Below are positions 2,662 to 64,000 of a stretch of 64,000 nucleotides of DNA, piece by piece. The notes beneath the pieces were generated by a model that saw only the letters and a list, made by a program, of their open reading frames with translations, was not told the DNA's origin and made no database searches. Within the stretch, counting starts at the first letter, position 1. The number at the start of each line of letters is the position of its first letter. The stretch comes from Cordilura impudica (Eukaryota; Arthropoda; Insecta; Diptera; Scathophagidae): contig OY821517.1 of the NCBI GenBank assembly GCA_963682025.1, positions 234,133,901-234,197,900 of the forward strand, read 5' to 3'. A program made the position numbers and the translations under genes.

Positions 2662-9232
<6,571 letters not shown>

Positions 9233-9239
9233 CTATATA

Positions 9240-10600
9240 TATAAAATTCATTTTCTGTTTGTTTGTTTGTTTGTTTGTTTGTTTGTTTGTTTGACCGCTA
9301 TACAAATTTTTGTTTTTCAACGGATTTTCCTGAAATTTTGTACACACGATCTCTATACCCCAGGAAAGGTCGCCATATACTTTTTACCGGCCACGCCTAC
9401 TTTTACGCCCACTTTTTATGTAAAATTCATTTTCTGTTTTATTCATATTTGTTCACTATACAAATTTTTTATTTGTTAACAGATTTCTCTGAAATTCGGT
9501 ACACACGATCCCTGTACTCCAGCTAAGGTCGCCATATACTTTTTATCGACCACGCCTACTTTTACGCCCACTTTTTATATACAATTCATTTTCTTCTTTT
9601 TGGTATATTTGTTCGGTATACAAATTTTTATTTTTCAACGCATTTCTCTGAAATTTGGTACACACGATCTTTGTACCTCAGGCCAGGTCACCGGGTGATT
9701 CTTGCGGCCACACCTACTTTTACGCCCACTTTTTGTATACAATTTGTTTTCTGTTTTTTGGTATATTTGTTTGCTATAAAAATTTTTGTTTTTCAACGGA
9801 ATTCTCTGAAATTTGGTACACACGACCTCTGTACTCCACCTAAGGTCGCCATATGCTTCGTACCGGCCACGCCTACTTTAACGCCCACTTTTTGTATACA
9901 ATTCATTTTGTTTTTTGGTATATTTGTTCGCTATACAAATTTTTATTTTTCAACCGATTTCTCTGAAATTTGGTACACACGATCTCTCTCCTCCAGGGAA
10001 AGTCGACATATTCTTCGTACCGGTCACGCCTACTATTATGCCCACTTTTTGTATACAATTCATATTCTGGTTTTAGGTACATTTGTTCGCTACATAATTT
10101 TTTTAACGGATTGAAATTTGCTACACACGATCTCTGTACTCCAGAGAGGTCGCCATATGATTCTTGCCGGTCACGCCTACTTCTACGCCCGCTTTTTATA
10201 CAAAATTAATTTTCTGTTTTTTGGAATATTTGTTCACTATAGAAATTTTTATTTTTCAAGGGATGTCTAAAATTTGGTCACACGATCTCTATACTACAGA
10301 GAAGGTCACCATATGCTTCTTACAGGCCACGCCTACTTTACGCCAACTTCTATGTATATAAAACTTATTTTTTCCTTTTATTTGTTTCTTTATTTGATTG
10401 CTATAAAAACTTTTATTTTTCAATGGCTTTCTTCGAAATTTAGTACATATTCCAGGGAAGGTCGCTGTATGATTTTTACCGACCACTCCTAATTTACGCC
10501 CAATTTTCTTATAAAATTCATATTTTGTTGTGTGGTATATTTCTTCCCTATACAAATTTGTACTTTTCAATGGATTTCTCTGAAATTTGGGTTACACGAA
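9240..10600. repeat. Tandem ~159-bp repeat, about 8.5 diverged copies
   Basis: AATTCATTTTCTG-type unit starts recur near 9243, 9423, 9582, 9741, 9899, 10059, 10206, 10367 and 10516. Each unit carries conserved blocks: TTTCAACGGATTTCTCTGAA, GGTACACACGATCTCTGTAC, AAGGTCGCCATATG and CCACGCCTAC. Copies differ by 10-20 percent and small indels. A (GTTT)n run at 9256-9292 sits at the junction with the AAT tract. The many short frames in all phases are repeat artefacts. Confidence 0.9.
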
Positions 10601-11500: not shown

Positions 11501-14500
11501 TTACATTTTACATTTTACATTTTACATTTTACATTTTACATTTTACATTTTACATTTTACATTTTACATTTTACATTTTACATTTTACATTTTACATTTT
11601 ACATTTTACATTTTACATTTTACATTTTACATTTTACATTTTACATTTTACATTTTACATTTTACATTTTACATTTTACATTTTACATTTTACATTTTAC
11701 ATTTTACATTTTACATTTTACATTTTACATTTTACATTTTACATTTTACATTTTACATTTTACATTTTACATTTTACATTTTACATTTTACATTTTACAT
11801 TTTACATTTTACATTTTACATTTTACATTTTACATTTTACATTTTACATTTTACATTTTACATTTTACATTTTACATTTTACATTTTACATTTTACATTT
11901 TACATTTTACATTTTACATTTTACATTTTACATTTTACATTTTACATTTTACATTTTACATTTTACATTTTACATTTTACATTTTACATTTTACATTTTA
12001 CATTTTACATTTTACATTTTACATTTTACATTTTACATTTTACATTTTACATTTTACATTTTACATTTTACATTTTACATTTTACATTTTACATTTTACA
12101 TTTTACATTTTACATTTTACATTTTACATTTTACATTTTACATTTTACATTTTACATTTTACATTTTACATTTTACATTTTACATTTTACATTTTACATT
12201 TTACATTTTACATTTTACATTTTACATTTTACATTTTACATTTTACATTTTACATTTTACATTTTACATTTTACATTTTACATTTTACATTTTACATTTT
12301 ACATTTTACATTTTACATTTTACATTTTACATTTTACATTTTACATTTTACATTTTACATTTTACATTTTACATTTTACATTTTACATTTTACATTTTAC
12401 ATTTTACATTTTACATTTTACATTTTACATTTTACATTTTACATTTTACATTTTACATTTTACATTTTACATTTTACATTTTACATTTTACATTTTACAT
12501 TTTACATTTTACATTTTACATTTTACATTTTACATTTTACATTTTACATTTTACATTTTACATTTTACATTTTACATTTTACATTTTACATTTTACATTT
12601 TACATTTTACATTTTACATTTTACATTTTACATTTTACATTTTACATTTTACATTTTACATTTTACATTTTACATTTTACATTTTACATTTTACATTTTA
12701 CATTTTACATTTTACATTTTACATTTTACATTTTACATTTTACATTTTACATTTTACATTTTACATTTTACATTTTACATTTTACATTTTACATTTTACA
12801 TTTTACATTTTACATTTTACATTTTACATTTTACATTTTACATTTTACATTTTACATTTTACATTTTACATTTTACATTTTACATTTTACATTTTACATT
12901 TTACATTTTACATTTTACATTTTACATTTTACATTTTACATTTTACATTTTACATTTTACATTTTACATTTTACATTTTACATTTTACATTTTACATTTT
13001 ACATTTTACATTTTACATTTTACATTTTACATTTTACATTTTACATTTTACATTTTACATTTTACATTTTACATTTTACATTTTACATTTTACATTTTAC
13101 ATTTTACATTTTACATTTTACATTTTACATTTTACATTTTACATTTTACATTTTACATTTTACATTTTACATTTTACATTTTACATTTTACATTTTACAT
13201 TTTACATTTTACATTTTACATTTTACATTTTACATTTTACATTTTACATTTTACATTTTACATTTTACATTTTACATTTTACATTTTACATTTTACATTT
13301 TACATTTTACATTTTACATTTTACATTTTACATTTTACATTTTACATTTTACATTTTACATTTTACATTTTACATTTTACATTTTACATTTTACATTTTA
13401 CATTTTACATTTTACATTTTACATTTTACATTTTACATTTTACATTTTACATTTTACATTTTACATTTTACATTTTACATTTTACATTTTACATTTTACA
13501 TTTTACATTTTACATTTTACATTTTACATTTTACATTTTACATTTTACATTTTACATTTTACATTTTACATTTTACATTTTACATTTTACATTTTACATT
13601 TTACATTTTACATTTTACATTTTACATTTTACATTTTACATTTTACATTTTACATTTTACATTTTACATTTTACATTTTACATTTTACATTTTACATTTT
13701 ACATTTTACATTTTACATTTTACATTTTACATTTTACATTTTACATTTTACATTTTACATTTTACATTTTACATTTTACATTTTACATTTTACATTTTAC
13801 ATTTTACATTTTACATTTTACATTTTACATTTTACATTTTACATTTTACATTTTACATTTTACATTTTACATTTTACATTTTACATTTTACATTTTACAT
13901 TTTACATTTTACATTTTACATTTTACATTTTACATTTTACATTTTACATTTTACATTTTACATTTTACATTTTACATTTTACATTTTACATTTTACATTT
14001 TACATTTTACATTTTACATTTTACATTTTACATTTTACATTTTACATTTTACATTTTACATTTTACATTTTACATTTTACATTTTACATTTTACATTTTA
14101 CATTTTACATTTTACATTTTACATTTTACATTTTACATTTTACATTTTACATTTTACATTTTACATTTTACATTTTACATTTTACATTTTACATTTTACA
14201 TTTTACATTTTACATTTTACATTTTACATTTTACATTTTACATTTTACATTTTACATTTTACATTTTACATTTTACATTTTACATTTTACATTTTACATT
14301 TTACATTTTACATTTTACATTTTACATTTTACATTTTACATTTTACATTTTACATTTTACATTTTACATTTTACATTTTACATTTTACATTTTACATTTT
14401 ACATTTTACATTTTACATTTTACATTTTACATTTTACATTTTACATTTTACATTTTACATTTTACATTTTACATTTTACATTTTACATTTTACATTTTAC

Positions 14501-17500
14501 ATTTTACATTTTACATTTTACATTTTACATTTTACATTTTACATTTTACATTTTACATTTTACATTTTACATTTTACATTTTACATTTTACATTTTACAT
14601 TTTACATTTTACATTTTACATTTTACATTTTACATTTTACATTTTACATTTTACATTTTACATTTTACATTTTACATTTTACATTTTACATTTTACATTT
14701 TACATTTTACATTTTACATTTTACATTTTACATTTTACATTTTACATTTTACATTTTACATTTTACATTTTACATTTTACATTTTACATTTTACATTTTA
14801 CATTTTACATTTTACATTTTACATTTTACATTTTACATTTTACATTTTACATTTTACATTTTACATTTTACATTTTACATTTTACATTTTACATTTTACA
14901 TTTTACATTTTACATTTTACATTTTACATTTTACATTTTACATTTTACATTTTACATTTTACATTTTACATTTTACATTTTACATTTTACATTTTACATT
15001 TTACATTTTACATTTTACATTTTACATTTTACATTTTACATTTTACATTTTACATTTTACATTTTACATTTTACATTTTACATTTTACATTTTACATTTT
15101 ACATTTTACATTTTACATTTTACATTTTACATTTTACATTTTACATTTTACATTTTACATTTTACATTTTACATTTTACATTTTACATTTTACATTTTAC
15201 ATTTTACATTTTACATTTTACATTTTACATTTTACATTTTACATTTTACATTTTACATTTTACATTTTACATTTTACATTTTACATTTTACATTTTACAT
15301 TTTACATTTTACATTTTACATTTTACATTTTACATTTTACATTTTACATTTTACATTTTACATTTTACATTTTACATTTTACATTTTACATTTTACATTT
15401 TACATTTTACATTTTACATTTTACATTTTACATTTTACATTTTACATTTTACATTTTACATTTTACATTTTACATTTTACATTTTACATTTTACATTTTA
15501 CATTTTACATTTTACATTTTACATTTTACATTTTACATTTTACATTTTACATTTTACATTTTACATTTTACATTTTACATTTTACATTTTACATTTTACA
15601 TTTTACATTTTACATTTTACATTTTACATTTTACATTTTACATTTTACATTTTACATTTTACATTTTACATTTTACATTTTACATTTTACATTTTACATT
15701 TTACATTTTACATTTTACATTTTACATTTTACATTTTACATTTTACATTTTACATTTTACATTTTACATTTTACATTTTACATTTTACATTTTACATTTT
15801 ACATTTTACATTTTACATTTTACATTTTACATTTTACATTTTACATTTTACATTTTACATTTTACATTTTACATTTTACATTTTACATTTTACATTTTAC
15901 ATTTTACATTTTACATTTTACATTTTACATTTTACATTTTACATTTTACATTTTACATTTTACATTTTACATTTTACATTTTACATTTTACATTTTACAT
16001 TTTACATTTTACATTTTACATTTTACATTTTACATTTTACATTTTACATTTTACATTTTACATTTTACATTTTACATTTTACATTTTACATTTTACATTT
16101 TACATTTTACATTTTACATTTTACATTTTACATTTTACATTTTACATTTTACATTTTACATTTTACATTTTACATTTTACATTTTACATTTTACATTTTA
16201 CATTTTACATTTTACATTTTACATTTTACATTTTACATTTTACATTTTACATTTTACATTTTACATTTTACATTTTACATTTTACATTTTACATTTTACA
16301 TTTTACATTTTACATTTTACATTTTACATTTTACATTTTACATTTTACATTTTACATTTTACATTTTACATTTTAATACATTTTACATTTTACATTTTAC
16401 ATTTTACATTTTACATTTTACATTTTACATTTTACATTTTACATTTTACATTTTACATTTTACATTTTACATTTTACATTTTACATTTTACATTTTACAT
16501 TTTACATTTTACATTTTACATTTTACATTTTACATTTTACATTTTACATTTTACATTTTACATTTTACATTTTACATTTTACATTTTACATTTTACATTT
16601 TACATTTTACATTTTACATTTTACATTTTACATTTTACATTTTACATTTTACATTTTACATTTTACATTTTACATTTTACATTTTACATTTTACATTTTA
16701 CATTTTACATTTTACATTTTACATTTTACATTTTACATTTTACATTTTACATTTTACATTTTACATTTTACATTTTACATTTTACATTTTACATTTTACA
16801 TTTTACATTTTACATTTTACATTTTACATTTTACATTTTACATTTTACATTTTACATTTTACATTTTACATTTTACATTTTACATTTTACATTTTACATT
16901 TTACATTTTACATTTTACATTTTACATTTTACATTTTACATTTTACATTTTACATTTTACATTTTACATTTTACATTTTACATTTTACATTTTACATTTT
17001 ACATTTTACATTTTACATTTTACATTTTACATTTTACATTTTACATTTTACATTTTACATTTTACATTTTACATTTTACATTTTACATTTTACATTTTAC
17101 ATTTTACATTTTACATTTTACATTTTACATTTTACATTTTACATTTTACATTTTACATTTTACATTTTACATTTTACATTTTACATTTTACATTTTACAT
17201 TTTACATTTTACATTTTACATTTTACATTTTACATTTTACATTTTACATTTTACATTTTACATTTTACATTTTACATTTTACATTTTACATTTTACATTT
17301 TACATTTTACATTTTACATTTTACATTTTACATTTTACATTTTACATTTTACATTTTACATTTTACATTTTACATTTTACATTTTACATTTTACATTTTA
17401 CATTTTACATTTTACATTTTACATTTTACATTTTACATTTTACATTTTACATTTTACATTTTACATTTTACATTTTACATTTTACATTTTACATTTTACA

Positions 17501-20437
17501 TTTTACATTTTACATTTTACATTTTACATTTTACATTTTACATTTTACATTTTACATTTTACATTTTACATTTTACATTTTACATTTTACATTTTACATT
17601 TTACATTTTACATTTTACATTTTACATTTTACATTTTACATTTTACATTTTACATTTTACATTTTACATTTTACATTTTACATTTTACATTTTACATTTT
17701 ACATTTTACATTTTACATTTTACATTTTACATTTTACATTTTACATTTTACATTTTACATTTTACATTTTACATTTTACATTTTACATTTTACATTTTAC
17801 ATTTTACATTTTACATTTTACATTTTACATTTTACATTTTACATTTTACATTTTACATTTTACATTTTACATTTTACATTTTACATTTTACATTTTACAT
17901 TTTACATTTTACATTTTACATTTTACATTTTACATTTTACATTTTACATTTTACATTTTACATTTTACATTTTACATTTTACATTTTACATTTTACATTT
18001 TACATTTTACATTTTACATTTTACATTTTACATTTTACATTTTACATTTTACATTTTACATTTTACATTTTACATTTTACATTTTACATTTTACATTTTA
18101 CATTTTACATTTTACATTTTACATTTTACATTTTACATTTTACATTTTACATTTTACATTTTACATTTTACATTTTACATTTTACATTTTACATTTTACA
18201 TTTTACATTTTACATTTTACATTTTACATTTTACATTTTACATTTTACATTTTACATTTTACATTTTACATTTTACATTTTACATTTTACATTTTACATT
18301 TTACATTTTACATTTTACATTTTACATTTTACATTTTACATTTTACATTTTACATTTTACATTTTACATTTTACATTTTACATTTTACATTTTACATTTT
18401 ACATTTTACATTTTACATTTTACATTTTACATTTTACATTTTACATTTTACATTTTACATTTTACATTTTACATTTTACATTTTACATTTTACATTTTAC
18501 ATTTTACATTTTACATTTTACATTTTACATTTTACATTTTACATTTTACATTTTACATTTTACATTTTACATTTTACATTTTACATTTTACATTTTACAT
18601 TTTACATTTTACATTTTACATTTTACATTTTACATTTTACATTTTACATTTTACATTTTACATTTTACATTTTACATTTTACATTTTACATTTTACATTT
18701 TACATTTTACATTTTACATTTTACATTTTACATTTTACATTTTACATTTTACATTTTACATTTTACATTTTACATTTTACATTTTACATTTTACATTTTA
18801 CATTTTACATTTTACATTTTACATTTTACATTTTACATTTTACATTTTACATTTTACATTTTACATTTTACATTTTACATTTTACATTTTACATTTTACA
18901 TTTTACATTTTACATTTTACATTTTACATTTTACATTTTACATTTTACATTTTACATTTTACATTTTACATTTTACATTTTACATTTTACATTTTACATT
19001 TTACATTTTACATTTTACATTTTACATTTTACATTTTACATTTTACATTTTACATTTTACATTTTACATTTTACATTTTACATTTTACATTTTACATTTT
19101 ACATTTTACATTTTACATTTTACATTTTACATTTTACATTTTACATTTTACATTTTACATTTTACATTTTACATTTTACATTTTACATTTTACATTTTAC
19201 ATTTTACATTTTACATTTTACATTTTACATTTTACATTTTACATTTTACATTTTACATTTTACATTTTACATTTTACATTTTACATTTTACATTTTACAT
19301 TTTACATTTTACATTTTACATTTTACATTTTACATTTTACATTTTACATTTTACATTTTACATTTTACATTTTACATTTTACATTTTACATTTTACATTT
19401 TACATTTTACATTTTACATTTTACATTTTACATTTTACATTTTACATATTACATTTTACATTTTACATTTTACATTTTACATTTTACATTTTACATTTTA
19501 CATATTACATATTACATATTACATTTTACATTTTGCATTTTACATTTTGCATTTTACATTTTACATTTTACATTTTACATTTACATTTTACATTTTACAT
19601 TTTACATTTTACATTTTACATTTTACATTTTACATTTTACATTTTACATTTTACATTTTACATTTTACATTTTACATTTTACATTTTACATTTTACATTT
19701 TACATTTTACATTTTACATTTTACATTTTACATTTTACATTTTACATTTTACATTTTACATTTTACATTTTACATTTTACATTTTACATTTCACATTTTA
19801 CATTTTACATTTTACATTTTACATTTTACATTTTACATTTTACATTTTACATTTTACATTTTACATTTTACATTTTACATTTTACATTTTACATTTTACA
19901 TTTTACATTTTACATTTTACATTTTACATTTTACATTTTACATTTTACATTTTACATTTTACATTTTACATTTTACATTTTACATTTTACATTTTACATT
20001 TTACATTTTACATTTTACATTTTACATTTTACATTTTACATTTTACATTTTACATTTTACATTTTACATTTTACATTTTACATTTTACATTTTACATTTT
20101 ACATTTTACATTTTACATTTTACATTTTACATTTTACATTTTACATTTTACATTTTACATTTTACATTTTACATTTTACATTTTACATTTTACATTTTAC
20201 ATTTTACATTTTACATTTTACATTTTACATTTTACATTTTACATTTTACATTTTACATTTTACATTTTACATTTTACATTTTACATTTTACATTTTACGT
20301 TTTACATTTTACATTTTACATTTTACATTTTACATTTTACATTTTACATTTTACATTTTTCATTTTACATTTTACATTTTACATTTTACATTTTACATTT
20401 TACATTTTACATTTTACATTTTACATTTTACATTTTA

Positions 20438-20440
<3 letters not shown>
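11501..20440. repeat. (ACATTTT)n heptamer satellite, about 8.9 kb
   Basis: An almost perfect head-to-tail array of the 7-mer ACATTTT, well over 1,200 copies. Rare variants include TTTTAATACA near 16371, ACATATT near 19445 and 19501-19520, and single-base changes near 19534-19580, 19791, 20300 and 20360. The uninterrupted core is next to the gap and the variants concentrate at the distal end, as expected if central units are homogenised. The 300-plus-codon HFTFYIL frames in it are artefacts of a 7-nt repeat that lacks stops. Confidence 0.97.
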
Positions 20441-20470
<30 letters not shown>

Positions 20471-20513
20471 TTAATTTTTTGTTTTTCATTTTTCATTTTC
20501 CATTCTCCATTTT

Positions 20514-20546
<33 letters not shown>

Positions 20547-20590
20547 TTCATTTTTCGTTTTCATTTTTTTTCGTTTTCATTTTTTCTTTC
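20441..20590. repeat. Degenerate edge of heptamer satellite
   Basis: The array decays into CCATTTT, TCATTTT and CGTTTT variants before normal sequence resumes. Confidence 0.8.
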
Positions 20591-39800: not shown

Positions 39801-40258
39801 CAAAATATTTAACTTTCTTTTAAAAATTCCCAGTTTTCGGTACTGTGATTTTTGTTAATGGTGTTGTAAATATGTAACCCAGTATATCAACAACTTATTT
39901 TAATGATCATGTATATTAGAGTGGGACCAAAGTGAAAAAGTACAATGATAATACGAATTGTAGAAAACTCTTTAAATTGCAATAAAAGTTTCCGGTTTGC
40001 GAAATATCCATCGCCTAAATACTAATGCATTATATTTAATAAAAATCACTACTTTTACTTTATTCCACAAATTGAAGAAAACAGTAAGTCTCAATATTAC
40101 AAATTGTGAATTAACATTCTTTTAGTTCAACATACTTCAAATGTCTTAACCCTGGTACTTTTTAACATTTTGATTTTCAGTCCGCTCTAACGTAAAATGC
40201 CAAATATAAATAATAAAAAAATACCGTCAAGGTCCTACTCAGTGATGTCCTGCTATTG
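39801..40258. other. Spacer, nothing recognised
   Basis: AT-rich sequence. No CACAGTG terminus for the neighbouring Transib remnant was found here. Confidence 0.4.
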
Positions 40259-40642
40259 ATCGTTGACCAACCGAAGCCAGGCTTTAGAAACTCTAACGAC
40301 GGCCAAAGAATTGATAGAACGAATGCATGGATACTGGTTGTTGTATCCTGTTGACATGAGTTTCAAGTTGATACGTTTATGAACTATACTCACAACATGG
40401 CCAGACATTTCCTTAAGCTCTACCCGTTGCCAATTGGCCAACTATCTGAGGAAGCTCAAGAAGCTCGAAACAAAAATTTTAAAAATTATAGAGAACACTA
40501 TGCACGTGAATGCAGTTGGGCGAAGTCAAATGAAGGCATATTTAAAAGTTATACGAAAAAAATTCATCATATACCACAGATGGCACTAGATTTAATAATT
40601 TTGCCAACCACAACAGGTGAAGAAGAGGTTAATCATGAATAA
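40259..40642 (+). pseudogene. Transib-like transposase, C-terminal remnant
   Basis: Transib is a cut-and-paste DNA transposon whose transposase is homologous to the RAG1 core. A first frame (about 40269-40376) gives TAKELIERMHGYWLLYPV. After a frame break, 40379-40642 reads THNMARHFLKLYPLPIGQ, then LSEEAQEARNKNFKNYRE. His-x4-His (HNMARH) corresponds to the zinc ligands His937/His942 of RAG1, and the Glu of QEARN to catalytic Glu962. The tail after that is degenerate (DDEE-rich). Everything N-terminal, including both catalytic Asp residues, is absent and no terminal repeats are seen. Confidence 0.8.
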
Positions 40643-41887: not shown

Positions 41888-43165
41888 TGTAGTCGTTGTG
41901 GTAATACTATTATAATAACTAGCCCTTTGTAAATTTTTTTTATCGACTCTGTAGAAAAATTGTAAAGTTTCCATTGTTTTGGCATCACTAAAAAAAATTA
42001 GTTCATTTTTGACATCGCCACGAGCCTGCCTGCATAGTTTCAGATCGATTAAGTCACGGGAAAAGGGTTAAAAATCAATCCAAATTTTTTTCGACAAGCA
42101 GACACTACGAGTTAATATAATTGGAGTAAAAATTCACCAACATCTAAAGTAAGTAATGTTCAACTACTTAGTTGTTAATAAAAACAAACAATGTAAATTT
42201 ACCAAACAAAATTTTATGTATTAATTTATTTAAAATAAACACGAAAATAACTTTTGATGTTGTATTTTTAGTGTGTAATATTTACATATATGTTTACATA
42301 TATTAAATAAAAAAATAATATACATATATTCTATACATGTATATTCATAATAACCACATGTTAGAAATAAATCGGTATATTATTTTATATATATAAAATT
42401 CTCCAATATGTATTTTGTTTTAGGGAAAATACATTTCTTTTGTATTAACAGAACGTCACTTCATTTTGCTCAGTGTTGCTATGCCATAGTAGATGCCGCC
42501 GCAATTTTTGTTCTAATTAGCTTTGCAATCGTTATTTCTATTTTAACTTGAATGGCAACATTTTCAATTAAATAGCATACGTTTTTCCATTATTCTTTTA
42601 CAAATATGACCATAAGTTTGCCATATTAACTTTTTGTTGTGTTTACAAAATAGAGTTACCTAGTTCATCAATGAGTTTTTTTTGCTTTCAAAACAGTTCT
42701 ACATAGTTATATAAAATTATTATTCTGCTTTACCTACAAAATATCTGATTGCGATTACATATAATTTTTAAAAATTGTTTAAAATTACTAAAGCATTACT
42801 ATTGACATAAATACAAAATTGCACCTTTTAAATTTTCCGTTCAAATTTAAAAAAAATATCAATTCTAAAAATTGGAATTCAGGTTTCCAATTATAAATTA
42901 GAAAATATAAATTGAATTTCAGAAAATCATATTAAAACGTCGGATATAATAACTTGAAATTTAGAAGACATCAATTGAATTTTTAAAATAAAAATTTTAT
43001 TCTTTAAACACAAATTGAAATTCAGAAAACACCATATATGTTTACATTTAAAAAATCAACTGAAATTAAAAAAAAATATTGCGATTCAGGAGACATTAAT
43101 AGCATTTCAGGATAAGAAAATATTTATTTAAATTCAATGAAGTTTAGAAAACCTAATTTAAGAAT
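41888..43165. repeat. Repeat R, copy 1 (carries the empty Transib target)
   Basis: First of three diverged copies of a long AT-rich repeat (others at 43349-45240 and 46110-47492 plus 50648-50690). Landmarks are TTTCCATTGTTTTGGCATCAC (41970), CATCGCCACGAG, GTGTGTAATATTTACATATA (42272), ATAACCACATGTTAG, TGCTTTCAAAACAGTTCTAC (42688) and TTAGAAGACATCAATTGAAT (42961). At 42938-42942 it has a single CGTCG where copy 3 has a Transib insertion between two CGTCG. At about 42680 it lacks the H element that copy 3 carries. No coding capacity. Confidence 0.8.
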
Positions 43166-43693: not shown

Positions 43694-44830
43694 CGCACCT
43701 GTACCTCTAAAGTGAGTCATATCAAAATTTAAAAATTTTCAGTAGAGGCAAAAAACGTTTTTTTTTTATATTTAATATAAAATTTAACAAGTAAGAAAAT
43801 TATAGTCGGTCTAGACCGACTATACGATACCCTATATATATTGAGTGGGATTTTTTATTAATTTTTTCGGCTGCAGATATGAAAAGTTCATATCGGATGC
43901 TATATCTATATGGGGACTAGGCCCAAAAATGGACCGATCCTGACCATGTTTGGTAAAGTCTCTTGTATTTTGCAAAAATATATACAAACAAAATTTGAGA
44001 AGAATCAGTGCAAAATTTTTGTTTTTTTGATAGATTTAAGTGAAGATCGGGAAGCAGCTCTATATGTGGCCTATGACTAAGAGTTGTCCAATAGGGATCA
44101 TTTTTGGACTACTGATTAATGGATGTAATATATACATACAAACCCAATTTGACTAAGAATTGTATGATAATTTGGATCTTATGGAAATATATGTTGATTT
44201 CATAGGGGTCATTTGTATGGGGGCTAGGTCTGAACATGGACCGATTTTCACCAATTTCAATAGCGTTCATCCCATGGCCGGCAAAAGATCAAATACCAAA
44301 TTTCGTCAAAATACATTCATATTTGCGACCTGCAGTTTGATTACAAGCTTTACATGGACACACAGACGGATGGACGGACATCGTTAAATCGAATCAGATA
44401 GTGATTCTGATTCGATCGGTATAATTAAAGATGGGTGTAGGTCAAATATTTTTGGTTGTTCCAAACAGCAGCACAAAGTCATTATACCCAAACCACATAG
44501 TGGTACCTATGGGGTATAAAAACAGTTGTTTCATTGTAAAGAATTGCGAATAATAAGTATACAACAGTAGTTGTTTTTGTGATTTTTTTAGTGATCATTA
44601 AAAATATCAATTTTTTTTGGGTACAACTCAAAATATATCTTTTCAGTGGATTCTGAAGAACCTACTCTTATAACACAAAAAGAGTTACAACTGTATTTTT
44701 TTTCCGAAAGATTAGAAAAATCGATGTAAGATTTTTACAGTGGATAGATATGACCACTGTGTATCGTTTTCTTGCAAAAATGTGAACATTGAAAAATTTT
44801 GAGTTGACTCACTTTAGAGGTACAGGTGCG
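43694..44830. mobile_element. Inverted-repeat element with a nested H element
   Basis: Terminal inverted repeats of about 30 bp begin CGCACCTGTACCTCTAAAGT (43694) and end with its complement ACTTTAGAGGTACAGGTGCG (44830). Both arms continue GAGTCA and, a few bases further in, CAAAATTT. ATAT is present at both flanks, matching the uninterrupted ACATATATTAAAT of the related repeat copies (target ATAT or TA). There is no transposase. About 730 bp of the interior is a nested family H element (43788-44520). Confidence 0.82.
43788..44520 (+). mobile_element. Family H non-coding element, copy 1
   Basis: Starts ACAAGTAAGAAAATTATAGT, then the perfect 18-bp palindrome AGTCGGTCTAGACCGACT and ATACGATACCCTATA. 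It ends CCAAACCACATAGTGG...GGTATAAAAAC. Copies at 46504-47229 and 53905-54677 (both inverted) have the same ends. The 75-codon frame at 44160 is not a gene: the matching stretches in the other copies are broken. No transposase, no clear target duplication. Confidence 0.8.
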
Positions 44831-46253: not shown

Positions 46254-47492
46254 TATAAGTATATTCATAATAACCGATTGTTAGAAATAAATCGGTATAT
46301 TATTTTATTTATACGACATTCTGCAATATTTTGTTTTAGGGAAAATACATTTCTTTTGTATTAACAAACAGAGTGTCACTTCATTTTGCTCAGTGTGACT
46401 ATGCCACAGTAGATGGCGCTTTGCAATAGTTATTTCTATTTTAACATGAATGTCAACATTTTCAAAATATACACATGACTGAGTAAAGAATTAATGAGTT
46501 TTTATACCCTATACGACCTGACTTTGTGCTGCTGTTTGTAACTACCAAAAATATTTGACTTAGACCCATCTTTTATTGTATCGATAGACTCAGAATCACT
46601 TTTTGCCTCGATTTAGCGATGTCCGTCCGTCCGTTCGTCCGTCTGTGTGTCTATGTAAACATTGTAATCAAACTACAGGTCGCAAATATGAACATATTTT
46701 GATGAAATTTTGTATATGAGCTTCTATCGGCCATATGCCAACGCTATTAGATCTAGTCCCCATACATAAATCGACATAAATTGCCATTACATCCGAATTA
46801 TCATATAGATCTCAGTCAAATTGGGTTTGTGTGTGTTTAATATGTCCATTAATCAGTAGTCCAAAAATAAACCCTATAAGACAATTCTTAGTCATAGCCG
46901 CATATAGAGCTGCTTTCCGATCTTCACTTTAATCTATCAAAAAACAAAAATATTGCACAGACTTTTCTCAAATTTGGTTTGTATTTATTTTATCAAAACA
47001 TAAGTGACTTTACCAAATATGGCCAGGATCGGTCCATATTTCGACCTAGTCCCCATATAATTACATCCGATATGAACTTTTTCATATCTGCAGCCAAAAA
47101 ATTAATAACAATGCCACTCAAATTTGGTTCATGCTTATTTTTTATATCGAATTAGTTGGACCAAAGAGATAGGGTCTCTAAACCATGGTATAGGGTATCG
47201 TATAGTCGGTCTAGACCGACTTTAATTTCTTACTTGTTTGCTTTCAAAACAGTTCTACATAGTTATATAAAATTATTATTCTGCTTTACCTACAAAATAT
47301 CTGATTGCGATTACATACAATTTTTAAAAACTGTTTAAAATTACTAAAGCATTACTGTTCACATAAATACAAAATTGAACCTTTTAAATTTTCCATTCAA
47401 ATTAAAGAAAACATCAATTCTAAAAATTTTAATTCAGATTTCCAATTATAAATTAGAAAATATCAATTGAATTTCAGAAAATCATATTGAAA
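46110..47492. repeat. Repeat R, copy 3, left part (split by H and Transib)
   Basis: Matches 42259-42937 of copy 1: GTGTGTAATATTTACATATA, AATAACCGATTGTTAG, TGTATTAACAAACAGAGTG, TGCTTTCAAAACAGTTCTAC, TTAGAAAATATCAATTGAAT. It continues after the Transib element at 50648-50690. A (CATA)n/(AT)n microsatellite lies at 46137-46250. Confidence 0.78.
46504..47229 (-). mobile_element. Family H non-coding element, copy 2
   Basis: Inverse orientation: ATACCCTATACGACC at the left, GGGTATCGTATAGTCGG and the palindrome near 47205, and TTTCTTACTTGT at the right. It interrupts repeat R copy 3 where copy 1 reads straight through (ATGAGTTTTTTTTGCTTTCA at 42670), so the insertion point is known to within a few T residues. 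No obvious target duplication. Confidence 0.82.
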
Positions 47493-47497
47493 CGTCG
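47493..47497. repeat. Target-site duplication CGTCG (left)
   Basis: CGTCG immediately precedes the left terminus and is repeated at 50643-50647. Transib elements are known for 5-bp GC-rich duplications of the form CGNCG. Confidence 0.95.
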
Positions 47498-48181
47498 CAC
47501 AGTGGCGCCCGTAGAGCAAACGAGGTTGCAAAAATCAAAATTTTCATGTGCGCCGACGAAGTTTTGATTAAACCCATGTTATAGGAAACTTTTTTCAAAA
47601 AAACACACAATTTTTAGTCATTTTGTTGCGATTTCAGGTGTAATATCACGAAAAATAGCTAACGAATCGCCATATTTTTTGTTTGTATTGATTGATGTAT
47701 TTATTAAATGTATAATGATAAAAAAAAAATTAACTGTTTGCTTTGTGTTTCTCCTGGCAAATCACTATTTAAAAACTATCCGTTTTTCACTATTTTTCAA
47801 CTTTGACGGAAAATAAAAAAAATCTATATTTTTCTATATTTGCCATATTTGCAAAACATGTTCTTTGATTATTTCTTTACATAATTCAAAAGGTTTTATC
47901 TGCCCGTACGTGCCCGTTTGGCTTCTAGAGGTAAAAAAGGTTAAAAAGACATGGTTGCAGAAATTGGCGTGCATCCCATACATGTTTTGACTGACAGTAG
48001 TTTGATCTAATAGCTTGAAAATTGCATTTTAAGTCGGTTGTCTACCTGTGAGCCTCTGCCAAAGTCTAATCCCAATATTCTGCTACAGACACAGGATGCA
48101 CAAAAAACTACTCATTGAAATTTGCAGGTACGCACCTCACTTAAAAATTACTTTGGAGTACAAATGGTCAAGAACAAAATT

Positions 48182-48487
48182 GACTTGTGGTCCCTCCAGG
48201 TAGGCACAGATCTTATTTAGACACGAGCATAATATCAAAATTGCATAATTCACCCTAAATCCATATGTATGCAGGGAACAGGTAAATTTTTAGGCATGGT
48301 AGCATAAGCCTATATATTGCAAAATAAGCATAATGACTTATGGTCCCTACAGGTAGGCACAAATCTTATTTAGACACGAGCATCATACCAAAATTGCATA
48401 ATTCAGCCTAAATCCATATGTATGCAGGGAACAGGTAAATTATTAGGCATGGTAGCATAAGCCTATATATTGCAAAATAAGCATAAT
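48182..48487. repeat. 153-bp direct duplication in the Transib leader
   Basis: 48182-48334 and 48335-48487 are direct copies, differing at a few positions, with shared blocks CAGGTAGGCACA, TCTTATTTAGACACGAGCAT and CATATGTATGCAGGGAACAG. It lies just upstream of the transposase ATG (48536), so it may be promoter or leader sequence. Confidence 0.88.
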
Positions 48488-48535
48488 GCCTGGATTAGTT
48501 TACGACTGAAAGTTGGCGCAACAAGTACTGAAACC

Positions 48536-50322
48536 ATGGCGTTAAACAATTTAAAATTATTTGAACTGTTTAGAAAGTCACCCACACCAAAGTTTTTCAC
48601 GGAAGCTGCTTTAGAAGAACTTGATAGCTTATACGGAAATATTGAGAGAAGCGAAATTATAAAAAATAATTTTTATCTGATATATGCAAATATTAAGGCA
48701 AAATGGGTGAAATCTAATCGAACCATTCAGAACTTCAACTCCAAATACGAGGACTGGCTTAATGAAGACACCATCCTGGATATATTGGCAGTAGATAAAC
48801 CCACCACATCAACCAGAAGAGCAAAAGGAAGGCCAAAAAAAAGTGTTGAGGAGTGTTCAATTTTCACAAGAAAGAGGAAACTTGCCGATGCCACCAATGA
48901 CTTGACCACGAAGCATTTATCGGACGCGCTGTCTTTTAAATATACAAAGGATAGTGAAAGAGTTAGGTCGCAGATTACAAAATCTGTTGCTGATGCAAGG
49001 CCACTGCGACTAAAAAGGATTAAGGAAAGCATTCCCACGCCCAGAAACGCACACATTAAAAAGTATGGTTCCGAAGAAGCCTTGGCCTTGTTTATGGACT
49101 TACAACTTTCCAAAGAAAAATATGAGATACTACGGGCATCCTTGATGCGACACGTGGCTGACGTTTTACCAGGATACAAGCATATTACGCAAGCCAAAAT
49201 AAATTCACGACCACTGCATACGGAGTTTACGGAAGTCTCTGTGAAAGCCAATCTGCAGGATCTCATGGGCCATACAGCAAAACGGTTGTTGGAGAGTTTT
49301 CCTGAAAATGAGGTGAAAACTCTTCCTGAGAAACTGACATTGATCAGCAAATAGGGCTGCGATGGAGCATCCGGACAAAGCGTTTATAAGCAAAGGATAT
49401 CTTCCGATAACGCTACAATATCGGACGGAAATATGTTTATGGCATCTGTCATCAGTGCATTATTGCCGACCAATAATGTTTCAGTTTACAAGGGAATCGG
49501 CAGAACTCATAAGGACCACGGTGAAGGACATTGAAGAACAAATAAGCAATATTAAGCCTACAAAGCTGCAAATTGGAGAAGGAAAATATATTGAATGCAA
49601 TTACGAGTTCCACCTGACCATGGTTGACGGAAAAGTCGTAAACGAACTGACAGGAACAACCTCAACATTGTCATGCCCGATTTGCAAAAAGAGTCAGAAG
49701 AAATTTGGTAATTTAAACGATTCTACAAACGAGGAGAATTACGAATAGTAGACTAAAAGTAGACTGTCCCAAGCACGGATACGGTAACTCAAACGATGGA
49801 AACACTTCTAAGAGATTTTTTGAAAATGATGAGGCAGTAACTAGAATCACTGGAATTGACAATCAATTCGTGAAAATATTGGGAACGCTCTTGAATGTTT
49901 TAAACTGCAAAGAAAATGTCAATTCTACAAAATATGGAGAATATGCATCGAAAACTGCATCTCTTTTAGCAGAAATGTATCCACAGAAGACGTTGACCCC
50001 GACCGTCCATAAAATATTGGCGCATGGCAAAGATATAATTGAGTACCAGTCTTTGCCAATTGGAGAGCTTTCTGAAGAAGCACAGGAGTCTCTTAACAAA
50101 TTTTATAAAAAATATAGATTGCAGAACACATTCAAAGCATCAAGGGTAAGGCAAAATGAGGACCTATTCAACATGTTGGCAGCATCTTCCGATCCACTTA
50201 TTTCTTCCCTGCGGCATGTGAAGTCACGAATAGAGTTAGAAAATAATTATAGTTTAGAAATGATTAGTATTTTTGATATACCTTCTCTTACGAATTGTGA
50301 TGAATATTTTACAGAAAATTGA
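48536..50322 (+). pseudogene. Transib transposase (RAG1-core homologue), copy 1, broken
   Basis: The ATG at 48536 opens a frame of 272 codons. N-terminal region, then KGRPKKSVEECSIFTRKRKL (48824-), which corresponds to the GRPR motif of the RAG1 nonamer-binding domain, then RIKESIPTPRN and EEALALFMDLQLSKEKYEIL. An in-frame TAG (49352-49354) replaces the Trp usual in KWGCDG. The first catalytic Asp follows (codon 49361, GCDGASGQS). After a frameshift come HYCRPIMFQFT and the second Asp (codon 49626, TMVDGKV) with the zinc pair CPIC. About 60-70 residues are missing near 49750. The last part (frame from about 49750 to 50322) has NSNDGNTSKRFF, zinc-type His-x4-His in VHKILAHG (50008, 50023) and catalytic Glu in EEAQESLNK (50086). 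Equivalent RAG1 residues are Asp600, Asp708, Glu962, Cys727/730 and His937/942. The zinc ligands are all present but the protein cannot be made. Confidence 0.93.
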
Positions 50323-50642
50323 AAAAATAAATTTAAAAAAGAAGTAATTTTTTTTTAATTTGTTGGGTAATAATTTAAAAAATAAAACCCTAAAGAAAAA
50401 AAAATAAAAACAATCTAAAAATGTAAAAATAATTTTTTTTAGTTACCATAAAATTGATTTTTCTACAAATTTTAACTTTGGTAACCCATAAGTAGGCCCC
50501 TACAAAGCGTACCACCCTTTCCAAACGCTCATTTCATAGGCTGAACAGTTATCTATCATATGCTGTTTAAACTGTTCAATTATGTTATTCGGTTCAAAAG
50601 ATATAATTTTTGCAACGAAAAAACTCAAATGGCGCCACTGTG

Positions 50643-50647
50643 CGTCG
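50643..50647. repeat. Target-site duplication CGTCG (right)
   Basis: Second copy of CGTCG, directly after the right terminus. It is followed by repeat R sequence (TTAGAAGACATCAATTGAAT) that continues the left flank. Confidence 0.95.
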
Positions 50648-50740
50648 GAAATAATTACTTGAGATTTAGAAGACATCAATTGAATTTTTAAAATATGCAT
50701 AATAAAATTCAAAATCAAAAGATGGCATCACTGGGTTAGA

Positions 50741-56940: not shown

Positions 56941-57534
56941 CTGTTGGATTTTGTGGGAATCGACGCACAGTGGACCATATTTTGAGAAGGCGGCCAAAAA
57001 TAATTTTTTTTTTTTTGTTACCGATTTTAAAGTTATGTTATTCATTTGAAAGTAAATACTAGTAAACCTCAGGGAGCCACTCTATCTCAACTGTATCACA
57101 GCGAACAGGGTCTTCGAAAATCGGCTTTCTCAGTATTTTGCTAAAATTAAAAATTTCTTTGTAAATTTTTTTTTGAATGACTGTAACTTTTTCGATTTAA
57201 AAGATTTTGAAGTGAAATAAATTTTGTATAATTTTGTGGCTTCCACACTATTAATGTTAAAAACGTCAAATCTCTGAGTCATTCCGAAATTAAAAAAAAA
57301 AATTTTTTAAAAAAGGTCAAAATTATCCGAAAATCTCCTACTTAATAGAGAACTAACTCCTGCCACTCAAAAGCAGTCAGAAAAAATCTTACACTCTTCT
57401 GTAGTCCGAGCCCTCCTTTATAGTCCTATACCCCATTATATACCCGCCAGCTTCCGCCCGTGTGCACCAGAACAATTTTTCTGACCCAAGGTTAGATATT
57501 TTCTGCAAAATTTAGAATACAAAAGTTGTCCACT

Positions 57535-57665
57535 ATGTGGTTAGGATATATTAAGTTTGAGGCGATGTTTGTAACTGCCAAAAATATTGGACCTTTATCC
57601 ATCTTTTATTATACGGATCGACTCAAAAACACTTTCTGAGTCGATTAAACGATGTCCGTCCGTCC
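57535..57665 (-). mobile_element. Family H fragment
   Basis: Matches the left 130 bp of the 53905 copy (CCACTATGTGGTTAGGATAT; AACTGCCAAAAATATTGG; GATGTCCGTCCGTCCGTC) and breaks off abruptly. It lies within the leader of Transib copy 3. Confidence 0.6.
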
Positions 57666-58209
57666 GTCTAAGTGTTATGAATACAAAAGTTGGTCGTACC
57701 GGTGGACCGCGGTTTATTTTTTTGCGTGTCGGTAGAGTTGTCAGGAGTTGTTATATACTTATAAAAAAGGGTTGAGATATAGTGCGCTTAATTGTTACAG
57801 GTACATTTACATAGGTATCTTTCGAAAACATAAATAGTCTGAATTAGAGTTATATAGTTTAAATACCTGTCAAAATGGGAAACAATTTAAATAACAGGTA
57901 AATGGTAAAAAAAACTATTGCGACATATCCCTTTAAGATATGAGCAGGTATGCTTCACCTTTTAAATGGGGTTAGGGTGTGGGTTTTTTATGCTTCTAAA
58001 AGTGGTAATAAAAGATAAAAATTTTTATTTTACATAATTGCAAGAAAGAGTATTTATAATAATGTTTACACAATTATTATTCATTACAATTTGTGCAATG
58101 GCTAAGTACTGTTACAGAGATCTGGCAGATATTTATTTTCAACGAAATGATGTAGACGATGTAATTTTGCACATAGTGAGCAACGACTTGTAACCTAGAA
58201 GACATTGAA

Positions 58210-59215
58210 ATGCACAAAGGAAAAATTACTAATTTTGCATCGAATTTGAAAAGACGGTACATTGAATGCTCTCATAGCAAGGCAAATATGTACAAACGTT
58301 ACCAAGACAGGTTAATAAAGGAACTTATTTTTGAGAGTGCATCTACAACTGCCAACGAAAGTGGAAAAAAGGGTCGACCAGCAAAACCAATTGACGGATG
58401 TAGTGAAAGATCTCGAAGGCGCAAGCTGGAGAATAACAATGGAGAAATTTCTCAAAGTATTATTAAGGATTCATTTTTGCACCAAATTCAACCAACCCAA
58501 AATAAAAAAAATAAAATTTAAATAATTGAAAAAATAGTAGAAGCGAGTCCAAGACGCACAAAGAGGATTTTGAAAAGCATTCCTACACCAATTGAAGATA
58601 AGAAATTTACGCCGGAAGAAGCGTTCGCCCTATTTTTGGATTCGAAATTGACCAAAAATCAATATAAGGAATTGCGGAAGCGAACCAATGAAAAGAATTG
58701 TGGGATTTTTCCAGAGTATCGAGATTTAGTTTCTGCCAAAAAAGAATGCTTACCTTCACAATCTGCTTTTAGTGTCACTTCAACATCTAGCATGCAGCAG
58801 AAAGATAAATGCAAAAAAATTTAGAGAGTACGCCAATAAAACAGCTATACTTTATAATGAAAAATACTCTTGGAGATATATGCCATCCACAGTTCATAAA
58901 ATTTTGTACCATGGGGAACAAATAATTCAAATCAATATGCTACCAATAGGAGATCTATCTGAAGAAGCGCAAGAAAAAAGGTACAAAGACTACAGATTCT
59001 TTCGCGAGCACAACACAAGGAAAATGTCCAGATGTTGTACTAATGAATACTTATCACTATTTTGTTGTGCACTTCAGATCCATATATGTCCAACATTCGT
59101 CAAAAATGGAAAACTACCTCTATTGAATTAGATGAAGAAGCTAAACAACTTCTAGAAGATGAAAATCAAGGCTATTTAGAAGAAATTTTTACTAAAATTG
59201 GTTGATCTAAAGTAC
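58210..59215 (+). pseudogene. Transib transposase, copy 3, lacking the catalytic centre
   Basis: Frame 1 from 58210: MHKGKITNFASNLKRR, KKGRPAKPIDGCSERSRRRK (nonamer-binding-type GRP motif), a TAA at 58519-58521, then SPRRTKRILKSIPTPIEDKK, PEEAFALFLDSKLTKNQYKE and CGIFPEYRDLVSAKKECLP. At about 58800 the sequence jumps to KFREYANKTAILYNEKYSWR in another frame. STVHKILYHGEQII (His-x4-His) and LSEEAQEKRYKDYRFFREHN (catalytic-Glu block) follow. After a further slip near 59073 come SDPYMSNIRQKWKTTSIELD and the stop at 59213-59215. The jump removes some 300 residues, including both catalytic Asp motifs and the CxxC. This is an internally deleted, non-autonomous type of copy. Confidence 0.88.
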
Positions 59216-60228: not shown

Positions 60229-63200
60229 CACAGTGGTTCAAAACCAAAAAAAAGTGGTAATAAGTCTGGAACTTCTAAACTATTGGTTGGATTGGAATAG
60301 TATATTCCAGGCGATTGTAGTCAAGGATATAGGCTTTCAAAATATTTATTTTTCAGATACCCTGTTGTAACACAGGGTGAGCTACAGGGTGCCAAAGTCG
60401 ACCACCTCGAGGTGGAATATGCTTTACAAGCTTGTAACTTTTATAAATATGAAGTGATTTTTACGTTTTTTAAATTTTTCCAATAACCATTAAATTATTA
60501 ACAAAAAACATGCTTATACTACCTAGTTATCGGTTATGGTTTAAAAAATATTTGATTTTAAAAATCAACATTTTAACTTTTCACCAAATTCTTTCTTGGT
60601 TTTTCGCAAATAACATTTTTATTAAAATAGATAAAAAAAAATCTAAAAATATGTGGCGATAGCCAGTACTTTTTGAAAAAATACGTTGAAGTATTTTTTG
60701 AATTATTTCCAACCGTTTAGTGAGCACAAAATCTTAAAGTTGACTTTTTGAATCAGGTTCTAAAATTGCAAATTTTTGCCAAAAAATACCCTTCATTCTT
60801 TCACTTTTTTCTCACAGCCTTGGTAAAATATGTATATATTTTTCTACATATTTTAAAAGAATATGCTTTAAGAATGGTTGTAAGTGAAATTTTTAATATT
60901 TTTGGACATGCACCCTACGTCCAGCATTGGACGAAATTGGGCAATTTAAAAAAAAAAAACTAAGTTTTAAAAGTTAATACAAAATATCCGCTCGATTTCT
61001 TCAAATATTTCACCGCAGTATTAAAGCTCCAAATATTTTTATTTATTTGCCGCAATAAAATTCACCGCCATTACATAAAGTCAAATTTTCATACGAATTT
61101 TTTTTGTTAACATAAAAACATATTAAGATTAGTTATTTTTATATTTTGTTTATTGATTCAGAACGGCATTTAAATTATCTAAAACACTTCAAAAAATCAT
61201 TTTGATAACGTTAATAGTTTTTGAGATATTTATATTCAAATTTCAGAAAAAAATATAGAAAAACTATGGTTTTTCGTTTTTTTTGGTTTTTTTGGTAAAG
61301 TGTTCCCAAAATTTTCGAATTTTACTTATTATTATACACATTGTTAAAGAAGACATATTTATCTATTCAACGATATATAACATGTCCATCAAATATATTG
61401 CAACATGCTGAAATGATGACCCCATACCACACTCCACAGGCAAAAATTTAGCTATTTCTCTATTTGTTCATATAAATGGTCATTTACATAGTGAATGACA
61501 TATTTTTTTATTGTTTTTTGGTAAAGGGTTGCATACGTTTTTATTACTTCAAATAATTTTATATATCTTTTCAAAGAAGATATAATTATAAGTTAATGGT
61601 GTATGAAATATTTACCTAATGAGTTTCAACTGATCATAAAATTGCCCGAAACTCTGATACCTATTGCAAAATATCTGTAATTCACAATACCTTTTTATGC
61701 AACAAAAAACAGGCAAAAGCCAATTCCTTAGATTCACTAAAACAAAATGTAAGTATTGGTTGAAGTACCTGCCCGATATGTTACCTTTCAAAAAGTATTT
61801 TCAGTATATAACCATGAGTTTCTTGTTTATTAAGATCACTTACGTATAATCTATCATGGAGGTTACATTAAAGTATTATTCACTTTGCAAAGTTATTTGG
61901 GAAAATCCTTCCGATTCTACTATTCATTCATCACGTTCGGAAAAAGTCTCGAAATTATTTTATACAATTAACAATACTTACGGTTTAAATGTGAGATCTG
62001 AAGATGTTGAAAATTTTTACAAAGCTTACGAAAGAAGATTTAGCCAATCGGGTTTATCAAAATCAAAGTTTATGACTAAAAATGAAGAATGGTTAAAAAC
62101 GGGCCTCACAGTACAAATTGAGAAAAAGGCATTTGGTCGACCTAAAAAGGACTACGAAAATGTTCAGTCAAGGACAAAAAAGAAAAAACAAGAAGAAATC
62201 ATTTCATTATCCTAATGAAATTAAGGATTTTTTTAAATCAGCCTTATCACGCACGCAACCAAAGGAAGCTGCTAAAATTGTAGATGTGTTACCAACTGCA
62301 TCTCCTAAGCGGTTGAAGCGTATGGTACAAAGTATTTCAACGCCAAAATCGTCAACATCATTTACAGAAGAGGATGCGTTAGCTCTTATTTTAAATTTGG
62401 GATTGACAAGAAATAAATATGGTATTTTGAGAAAAGCTCTCAAAGAAAAAGGATTTGATATTTTTCCTACCAGCAGAGCCATAAAGGAAACAAAAAATAA
62501 AATTCTACCATCTAATGTGAAATCCAATACTGTAAGTGCAAATGTTGGATTAGCGGAACTGCTTGAAAACACTGCATCTAGAATAATATCCACATTTAGC
62601 AAAGAAGAAATAGAAATATGCAACAATTCAGAAGTTACGTTAATATGTAAATGGGGATGCGATGGAACATCTGGATTTTCTGAGTATAGACAACCAAGTG
62701 GAAGCAATTCAGAAATAGATTTTTCAACAATTTTTATGACATCATTAGTACCATTAAAAATGAGGCTATATAATGAGACAAGTTCTTCTTCTAGTGAGAG
62801 AGAATATCAGGACATATGGAGTAATTTAACACCCGGATCTAAGTTTCTATGTCGGCCAATCCGATTTGAGTACACAAAGGAAGACAAAATTACAACACAA
62901 AGCTTAGTGAGTTCAATAAATCAGGAAATTTCGAGATTGTCTCCAATTTTTGTGGAAATATCTGGAAGTGTCATTAAAGTATTATTTCAACCACTTTTTA
63001 CAATGATTGATGGGAAAGTAGCCAATGCCGTTACAGATATAACATCTACTTGGAAATGTAATATATGTGGAAAGAAAAGTTCAGAATTTCATAACAGTTG
63101 TGATGAAATTCCTATTAATGAAAATGCTTTAAAATTTGGAATATCACCACTTCATGCAAGAATACGATTTATGGAATATTGCTTGCATCTCGCATATGAT

Positions 63201-64000
63201 CTAAAATACCGACAAATTCCAGGACAAAAAAATATACCAGTTAAAAATAATACTGATCTACACGCCATACGAAAAACTGAGAAGAAAAGAATTCAGGATG
63301 AATTTAAAATGCAACTTGGTCTAATTATCGATAAGCCTCTTTGTGGCTATGGAAGTTCAAATGATGGTAATACAGCAAGACGTTTCTTTGAAGATCCCGA
63401 AACTACTTCTTTGATTACTAGCATTGACACGGCTTTAATCGCACGGTTTAAAGTAATATTAGCTGTCATTAATAGTAAACAACAAATTAATGCGGAGAAA
63501 TTGAAAATATATGCTAGTGGAACTAAGGAATTAATAATGAACTTATATCCTTGGAGGCCAATGACACCAACTGTACAGAAAGTATTAGCTCATGGGAAAG
63601 AAATAATACAAAATAGCATCCTGCCCTTGGGAGAACTGACTGAAGAAGCACAAGAAGCTAGAAACAGAGATGTCAAACACTTTAGACTTTTTAATACAAG
63701 AAAATGTAGCAAAGAAGCCCAAAATTCCGATTTAATGGAATATTTATTGATATCATCAGATCCAGTAATATACTCCATAAGAACAAAATGGTTACCAAAA
63801 ATAAGTCTTGAAATAGAAAATGATGATTCCGAAGCTATGGATATAAAACATCTTTTATCTTTTGATATTTCTGATTGTTTTGTAGAAAATAACTAGTAAA
63901 AAAGCAGACAATTGTTATGTAATTTTAAGCCCATTATAAAACAAAATAAAAAAATACTCATTAAAAAAAATTTAGTTATATTTGTTATTTAATAATGAAA
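60229..64000 (+). mobile_element. Transib element, copy 2 (left end and coding region; right end beyond window)
   Basis: The left terminus is inferred at CACAGTGGTTCAAAACC (60229), preceded by TGTCG, which fits the Transib target CGNCG except at the first base. The 1.6-kb leader (60229-61855) is AT-rich and has no frame of interest. The transposase follows at 61856-63896. The 3' end lies outside: in copy 1 the right end is 320 bp after the stop, here only 104 bp remain. No nonamer-like block is clear at the usual 23-base spacing, so the left end is less certain than in copies 1 and 3. Confidence 0.72.
61856..63896 (+). pseudogene. Transib transposase (RAG1-core homologue), copy 2, one frameshift
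   Basis: About 680 residues in two frames, 61856-62215 and about 62190-63896, joined by a single slip in the A-rich stretch near 62170-62210. N terminus: MEVTLKYYSLCKVIWENP, YERRFSQSG, NEEWLKTG, then FGRPKKDYENVQSRTKKKK (nonamer-binding-type motif). Second frame: SPKRLKRMVQSISTPKSS, EEDALALILNLGLTRNKYGI and FDIFPTSRAIKETKNKILPS, which parallels the RAG1 segment just after its nonamer-binding domain. Catalytic Asp 1 in KWGCDGTSGFSEY (codon 62661), Asp 2 in FTMIDGKVANAV (63009), zinc CNIC (63057-63068), YGSSNDGNTARRFF (63348-) and catalytic Glu in TEEAQEARNRDV (63654). The first zinc His of the HxxxxH pair is Gln (VQKVLAH, codon 63576). It ends DISDCFVENN. Length is normal for Transib. The best-preserved transposase here, probably inactive. 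Confidence 0.93.

Follow-up and report, generated by a model that had tools for sequence, protein, structure and literature searches.

A Transib element with RSS-like ends and a paralogous empty site in the genome of Cordilura impudica

Within the 64,000-nt stretch of Cordilura impudica DNA analysed here (the window), a transposon-like insertion begins and ends with sequences that resemble V(D)J recombination signals (RSS). The original prediction described it as a complete Transib element with its empty site in the same window. Here we ask what kind of element this is, how it came to lie where it does, and how far its ends can be read as recombination signals.

Element boundaries and the interrupted repeat

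The element is 3145 bp long (47498-50642) and has a copy of CGTCG on either side, at 47493-47497 on the left and, as read from the sequence, at 50643-50647 on the right; the 5-bp duplication that had been predicted was found at exactly these places. Both ends start, as originally claimed, with the heptamer CACAGTG (47498-47504 on the left; 50636-50642, minus strand, on the right). At the left end (47498-47536, plus strand) the heptamer is followed by a 23-bp spacer and the A-rich block GCAAAAATC, and at the right end (50605-50642, minus strand) by a 22-bp spacer and the A-rich block GCAAAAATT, the two spacers measuring what had been given for them. The termini form a perfect 12-bp inverted repeat, CACAGTGGCGCC. 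Inward of this repeat the ends are mostly dissimilar, except for a common 11-bp block, GTTGCAAAAAT, that was equalled in 1 of 5000 mononucleotide shuffles. When aligned to the RSS nonamer ACAAAAACC, the left block matches at 7/9 positions and the right block at 6/9. In 200 first-order Markov sequences modelled on the 43.4 kb of the window outside the satellites, CACAGTG followed at 22 or 23 bp by a nonamer match of at least 7/9 arose 0.025 times on average and at most twice; the left end passes this threshold and the right end is one match short of it.

The insertion interrupts a repeat of the host. The left part of the interrupted repeat (47237-47497, plus strand) is 94.7% identical to 42681-42942 and the right part (50643-50695, plus strand) is 94.3% identical to 42938-42990, both stretches belonging to a paralogous repeat copy (42679-43013, plus strand) in which CGTCG occurs once, at 42938-42942. 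The best local alignment between the joined flanks and this empty site contained 308 identities, 28 mismatches and 1 gap; in this alignment, which the original prediction had proposed as a check, the flanks align across the insertion and no failure to align was seen. The repeat is a dispersed family, with 2243 first-look candidates in the genome, of which the best 40 (window's own included) were scored. The site was uninterrupted in 40 of these 40 copies, a number that cannot serve as an estimate of the filled fraction because the ranking favours uninterrupted copies and interrupted ones rank low. Among 15 copies fetched from the other 39, the insertion was absent from all 15 and a single intact CGTCG was present in 10. 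The empty and filled sites genuinely compare the states before and after insertion, but they do so in two paralogues and not at one locus. The natural before/after pair put forward originally stands as regards the single CGTCG, with the correction that the empty partner is a paralogue from a high-copy repeat family.

The transposase and its family in the host genome

A sister copy of the element, L050, carries an open transposase frame of 667 codons, which is the one ATG-started ORF in its 6001-base stretch when ORFs of at least 400 aa are counted. The L050 protein matched the solved structure of HzTransib from Helicoverpa zea (6pqn) over residues 177-654 (E 1.4e-88), and gave weak matches to RAG1 (E 4.3e-07) and to RAG1L (6b40, E 2.4e-05). 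Residues D276, D383 and E590 of L050 align to D109, D208 and E419 of the HzTransib chain, each of which is numbered 17 below the catalytic residues D126, D225 and E436 reported for HzTransib (PMC6941560). The Pfam RAG1 profile (PF12940) scored 36.4 bits on the L050 protein, the curated cut-off being 25. A search for relatives scored 7990 candidates and yielded at least 538 relatives, 120 of which were listed; the best full-length relative among those listed was 61% identical, and one 450-aa partial was 95% identical. Their named sources include Helicoverpa armigera and the tephritid fly Eurosta solidaginis. When the L050 query was aligned with 53 of the relatives listed (120 of at least 538), the catalytic DDE was complete in 51 of the 54 transposases and a GRP motif at residues 98-100 was present in 50.

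To follow the family across the host, we searched 1,486,481,460 bases in 855 contigs. Candidates numbered 1887 for a whole-element query, 320 for a right-part query and 79 for a left-end query, the best 40 being scored in each case. In the right-part search the window's own sequence was 100% identical and the remaining 39 had identities of 95-98%; left-end matches besides the window's own cover the first ~100 of the 148 query bases. Fifty loci were examined, namely L001 (the window copy) and L010-L058, with L002-L009 excluded because they cover places already counted. The right end could be placed in 49 loci and both ends in 19, L054 having no right end in the fetched stretch. With the window copy included, the heptamer was exactly CACAGTG in 47/49 right ends and 16/19 left ends, one of the three non-exact left ends being an end that is lost. 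The block GCAAAAATC was found at 23 bp in 17 of the 19 left ends (window copy included), and either GCAAAAATC (35) or GCAAAAATT (5) at 22 bp in 40 of the 49 right ends. The genome search for further copies suggested originally therefore finds that CACAGTG ends recur and that differing termini are not the rule.

Flanks are common to L011 and L016, and to L050, L051 and L053; collapsing loci duplicated in this way left 17 distinct both-end insertions. Identical 5-bp flanks were present in 13 of the 19 both-end loci and in 13 of the 17 distinct insertions; in one of the four remaining insertions their lack is due to a lost left end. The right flanks of 46 distinct insertions fitted CGNCG in 25 cases and CRNYG in 40, the background per site in positions 20601-64000 of the window being 0.00065 and 0.0059, respectively. 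The exact pattern GGCGCCACTGTG-N0-20-CACAGTGGCGCC, which represents head-to-head joined ends and would let imperfect joints escape, had 0 matches in the genome, and a signal-joint-like remnant was rejected on this count.

We conclude that the element belongs to the Transib superfamily and is a new family of it. A RAG1-related DDE transposase, CAC-type heptamers, a 5-bp duplication and CGNCG-like targets were all found, and these are features that it has in common with Transibs such as those of Drosophila and Anopheles and HzTransib; CGNCG is the target given for Transib (PMC4735498). Protein, ends, duplication and target motif thus bear out the identity assigned at the outset. ProtoRAG/RAGL transposons also have a 5-bp duplication, CAC ends and a RAG1-like enzyme, but the L050 enzyme is much closer to HzTransib than to RAG1L, by the E values given above; no RAG2-like partner gene was noticed, the ORFs listed for the L050 stretch being those of at least 400 aa. 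The insect Transibs gain a well-documented family, with tens of copies examined, a transposase frame that is open in a sister copy, and empty and filled sites that pair cleanly.

Transib ends and V(D)J-type signals

Transib ends have been described as a heptamer plus, in some members, nonamer-like blocks, with symmetric spacers of 20-22 bp, a few having 12/23 spacers (PMC8355894), and some Transibs are reported to have heptamers and nonamers identical to those of RAG, with varied spacers (PMC6941560). Both of these sources cite Kapitonov and Jurka 2005 for the description of RSS-like Transib ends. Set beside these accounts, as the original prediction had proposed, the ends studied here show no departure from what the accounts describe; the heptamer is exactly CACAGTG, and the spacers are 23 and 22 bp against the 20-22 bp published there. 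RSS-like ends together with a matching empty site are what is expected of the known Transib group, and the picture of V(D)J origin is left unchanged by this family alone because RSS-like Transib ends are, according to those sources, on record since 2005.

The likeness to the V(D)J system lies in a heptamer equal to the RSS consensus, an A-rich block at 22-23 bp and catalytic residues that correspond to those of RAG1. Unlike a V(D)J signal pair, the ends are both 23-type, with nonamers that match at 7/9 and 6/9, and the sequence is a transposon, not a receptor locus. Examined as V(D)J-type signals, the ends have the heptamer CACAGTG and, with spacers of 23 and 22 bp, lack a 12/23 pair of nonamer spacings.

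Two further Transib families in the window start with the same heptamer. Family B is decayed (56966-59180, with transposase remains at 58192-59053); its left end, at 56966, reads CGACG and then CACAGTGG, with an A-rich block 21 bp away, and no right end was found by duplication matching. Its left-end query gave 818 candidates, and all 40 that were scored (window's own included) start at the first base. Family D (60229-64000, with ORFs at 61856-63896) is high-copy; its left end, at 60229, reads TGTCG and then CACAGTGG, and has an A-rich run ~11 bp from the heptamer and no block at 21-23 bp. The left-end query for this family gave 1353 candidates; 39 of the 40 scored (window's own included) start at the first base and the remaining one starts a base later, and the 39 other than the window's own are 98% identical. 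In two other genomic copies of family D, the far end carries an inverted repetition of the ~1.37-kb left arm, for a total of ~5.1 kb, the inverted arm being seen except for its outermost 20-30 bp. We fetched 10 further plus-strand copies of each of the two families. CACAGTG was present in 20/20, and CCAAAAAT stood at 21 bp in the 10/10 family B copies inspected. Left flanks fitted CGNCG in 5/10 copies of family B and 1/10 of family D, and CRNYG in 6/10 and 2/10; the target preference of family D looks weaker from these flanks.

It is possible, although we consider it doubtful, that the ends are bona fide RSS equivalents, in which a heptamer and a nonamer at 22-23 bp are read by a nonamer-binding domain. 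The exact RSS heptamer, the left end's 7/9 nonamer with its 23-bp spacer and the 11-bp block common to otherwise unlike spacers are consistent with this reading. So is the constancy of the blocks at 23 bp (17/19 left ends) and 22 bp (40/49 right ends), with the limit that end conservation among copies does not show function because the copies of a family have inherited their ends from a common ancestor. On the protein side, the GRP motif of 50/54 related transposases points the same way, as does the equivalent of the nonamer-binding domain, with GRP positions, that is described in Transibs (PMC9435367); and family B places its block at 21 bp in every copy inspected. Against it stand the two ends of the 23 type, which leave no 12/23 pairing, the 6/9 nonamer on the right, and the HzTransib ends, which reportedly have little or no nonamer similarity (PMC8289069). 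The heptamer is common to family A (that of the element), B and D, and the A-rich block lies at 21-23 bp only in A and B; its absence at a comparable distance from family D speaks against generalising a strict RSS reading. The strict reading is unproven because families B and D place the A-rich block at 21 and ~11 bp; what stands of the functional spacer/nonamer signal originally inferred is the resemblance in sequence.

A single genome that holds several multi-copy Transib families with the same heptamer and spacings of 23/22, 21 and ~11 bp offers a natural series of spacer lengths, and the family described here is useful as comparative material on the origin of V(D)J signals. We regard it as rather improbable, though conceivable, that 12-type and 23-type signals arose as alternative Transib end architectures coexisting in one genome; this reading presupposes that every transposase uses its GRP region to recognise the spacing particular to it.

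The broken gene and the history of the insertion

In the window copy the transposase gene is broken. Its N-terminal part (48536-49351, plus strand), with GRP at residues 98-100, ends at a TAG (49352-49354), past which similarity in the same frame extends as far as ~residue 306 (49453) and takes in the first catalytic Asp (49361-49363). An ORF in a different frame (49362-49745, plus strand) holds the middle part, with clear transposase similarity beginning at ~49470 and the second catalytic Asp at 49626-49628; the C-terminal part (49753-50319, plus strand), with the catalytic Glu at 50086-50088, follows after a further internal deletion. Similarity is split over three frames, the first of which contains the stop, residues 423-478 are missing, and the three catalytic codons survive in broken frames. 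The protein pieces match HzTransib 6pqn too; Pfam RAG1 scored 23.1 bits (cut-off 25) on the C-terminal piece and had no match on the other two. Upstream of the gene lie two 153-bp direct repeats (48181-48488, plus strand), also present in other copies covering this region. The description of the element as complete is therefore limited to its termini, which are intact, because the gene has a stop and internal deletions.

Where aligned, the window copy is 97.4% identical to L050 (3057 of 3140 positions), from which it differs by three larger deletions and small gaps. A search for the three larger deletion junctions, allowing up to three substitutions and recovering the window copy as positive control, found them in 0/17, 0/42 and 0/41 sampled loci with sequence on either side, and a lineage sharing these deletions was rejected. 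A broken gene between intact ends and a perfect duplication could suggest a non-autonomous deletion derivative that proliferates by mobilisation in trans, and the shorter 1650-bp copy L022 likewise has both ends and identical flanks; the absence of the junctions from the sampled loci, 49 drawn from a larger family, argues against such a derivative, and we consider it unlikely. That the heptamer, spacer and nonamer matched by chance and the repeat aligned as an AT-rich coincidence, for which the AT-richness of the region could speak, is refuted by the genomic copies and can hardly be entertained, given the Markov expectation of 0.025 signals outside the satellites of the window, the presence of the ends at tens of places, in many of which the two 5-bp flanks are identical, and the recurrence of the empty site in further repeat copies.

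The whole of the evidence is almost certainly explained by a copy of a Transib cut-and-paste DNA transposon that inserted at the CGTCG of a dispersed repeat and whose gene is now broken. Insertion within the repeat copy would have duplicated those 5 bp. The RAG1-related DDE transposase of the family would bind both ends, cut exactly at CACAGTG and, by analogy with the HzTransib enzyme and RAG, join the cut ends to a GC-rich 5-bp target. HzTransib is reported to move by cut-and-paste with hairpins on the flanks (PMC6941560), and we infer by the same analogy that this family may use RAG-like chemistry. The window copy would have been moved by the product of an intact frame, either its own before decay or that of another copy, and probably decayed in place after insertion. 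The transposase probably makes a second, subterminal contact at the A-rich block, which lies 22-23 bp in from either end, and the part of the enzyme that reads it may be the GRP-bearing N-terminal region.

Other features of the window were also recorded. A short decayed fragment of a Transib transposase, ~29% identical to the L050 query, lies at 40256-40543. At 44761 (minus strand), CACAGTGG is followed ~17 bp on by TAAAAATC, possibly a lone Transib end, and the search for an end to partner this CACAGTG gave no convincing candidate. Farther to the left, an AAT satellite of ~6.5 kb (2682-9232) and a ~9-kb satellite of the 7-mer TTACATT (11501-20567, 99% matches) are separated by a tandem array with a unit of ~159/317 bp (9296-10590).
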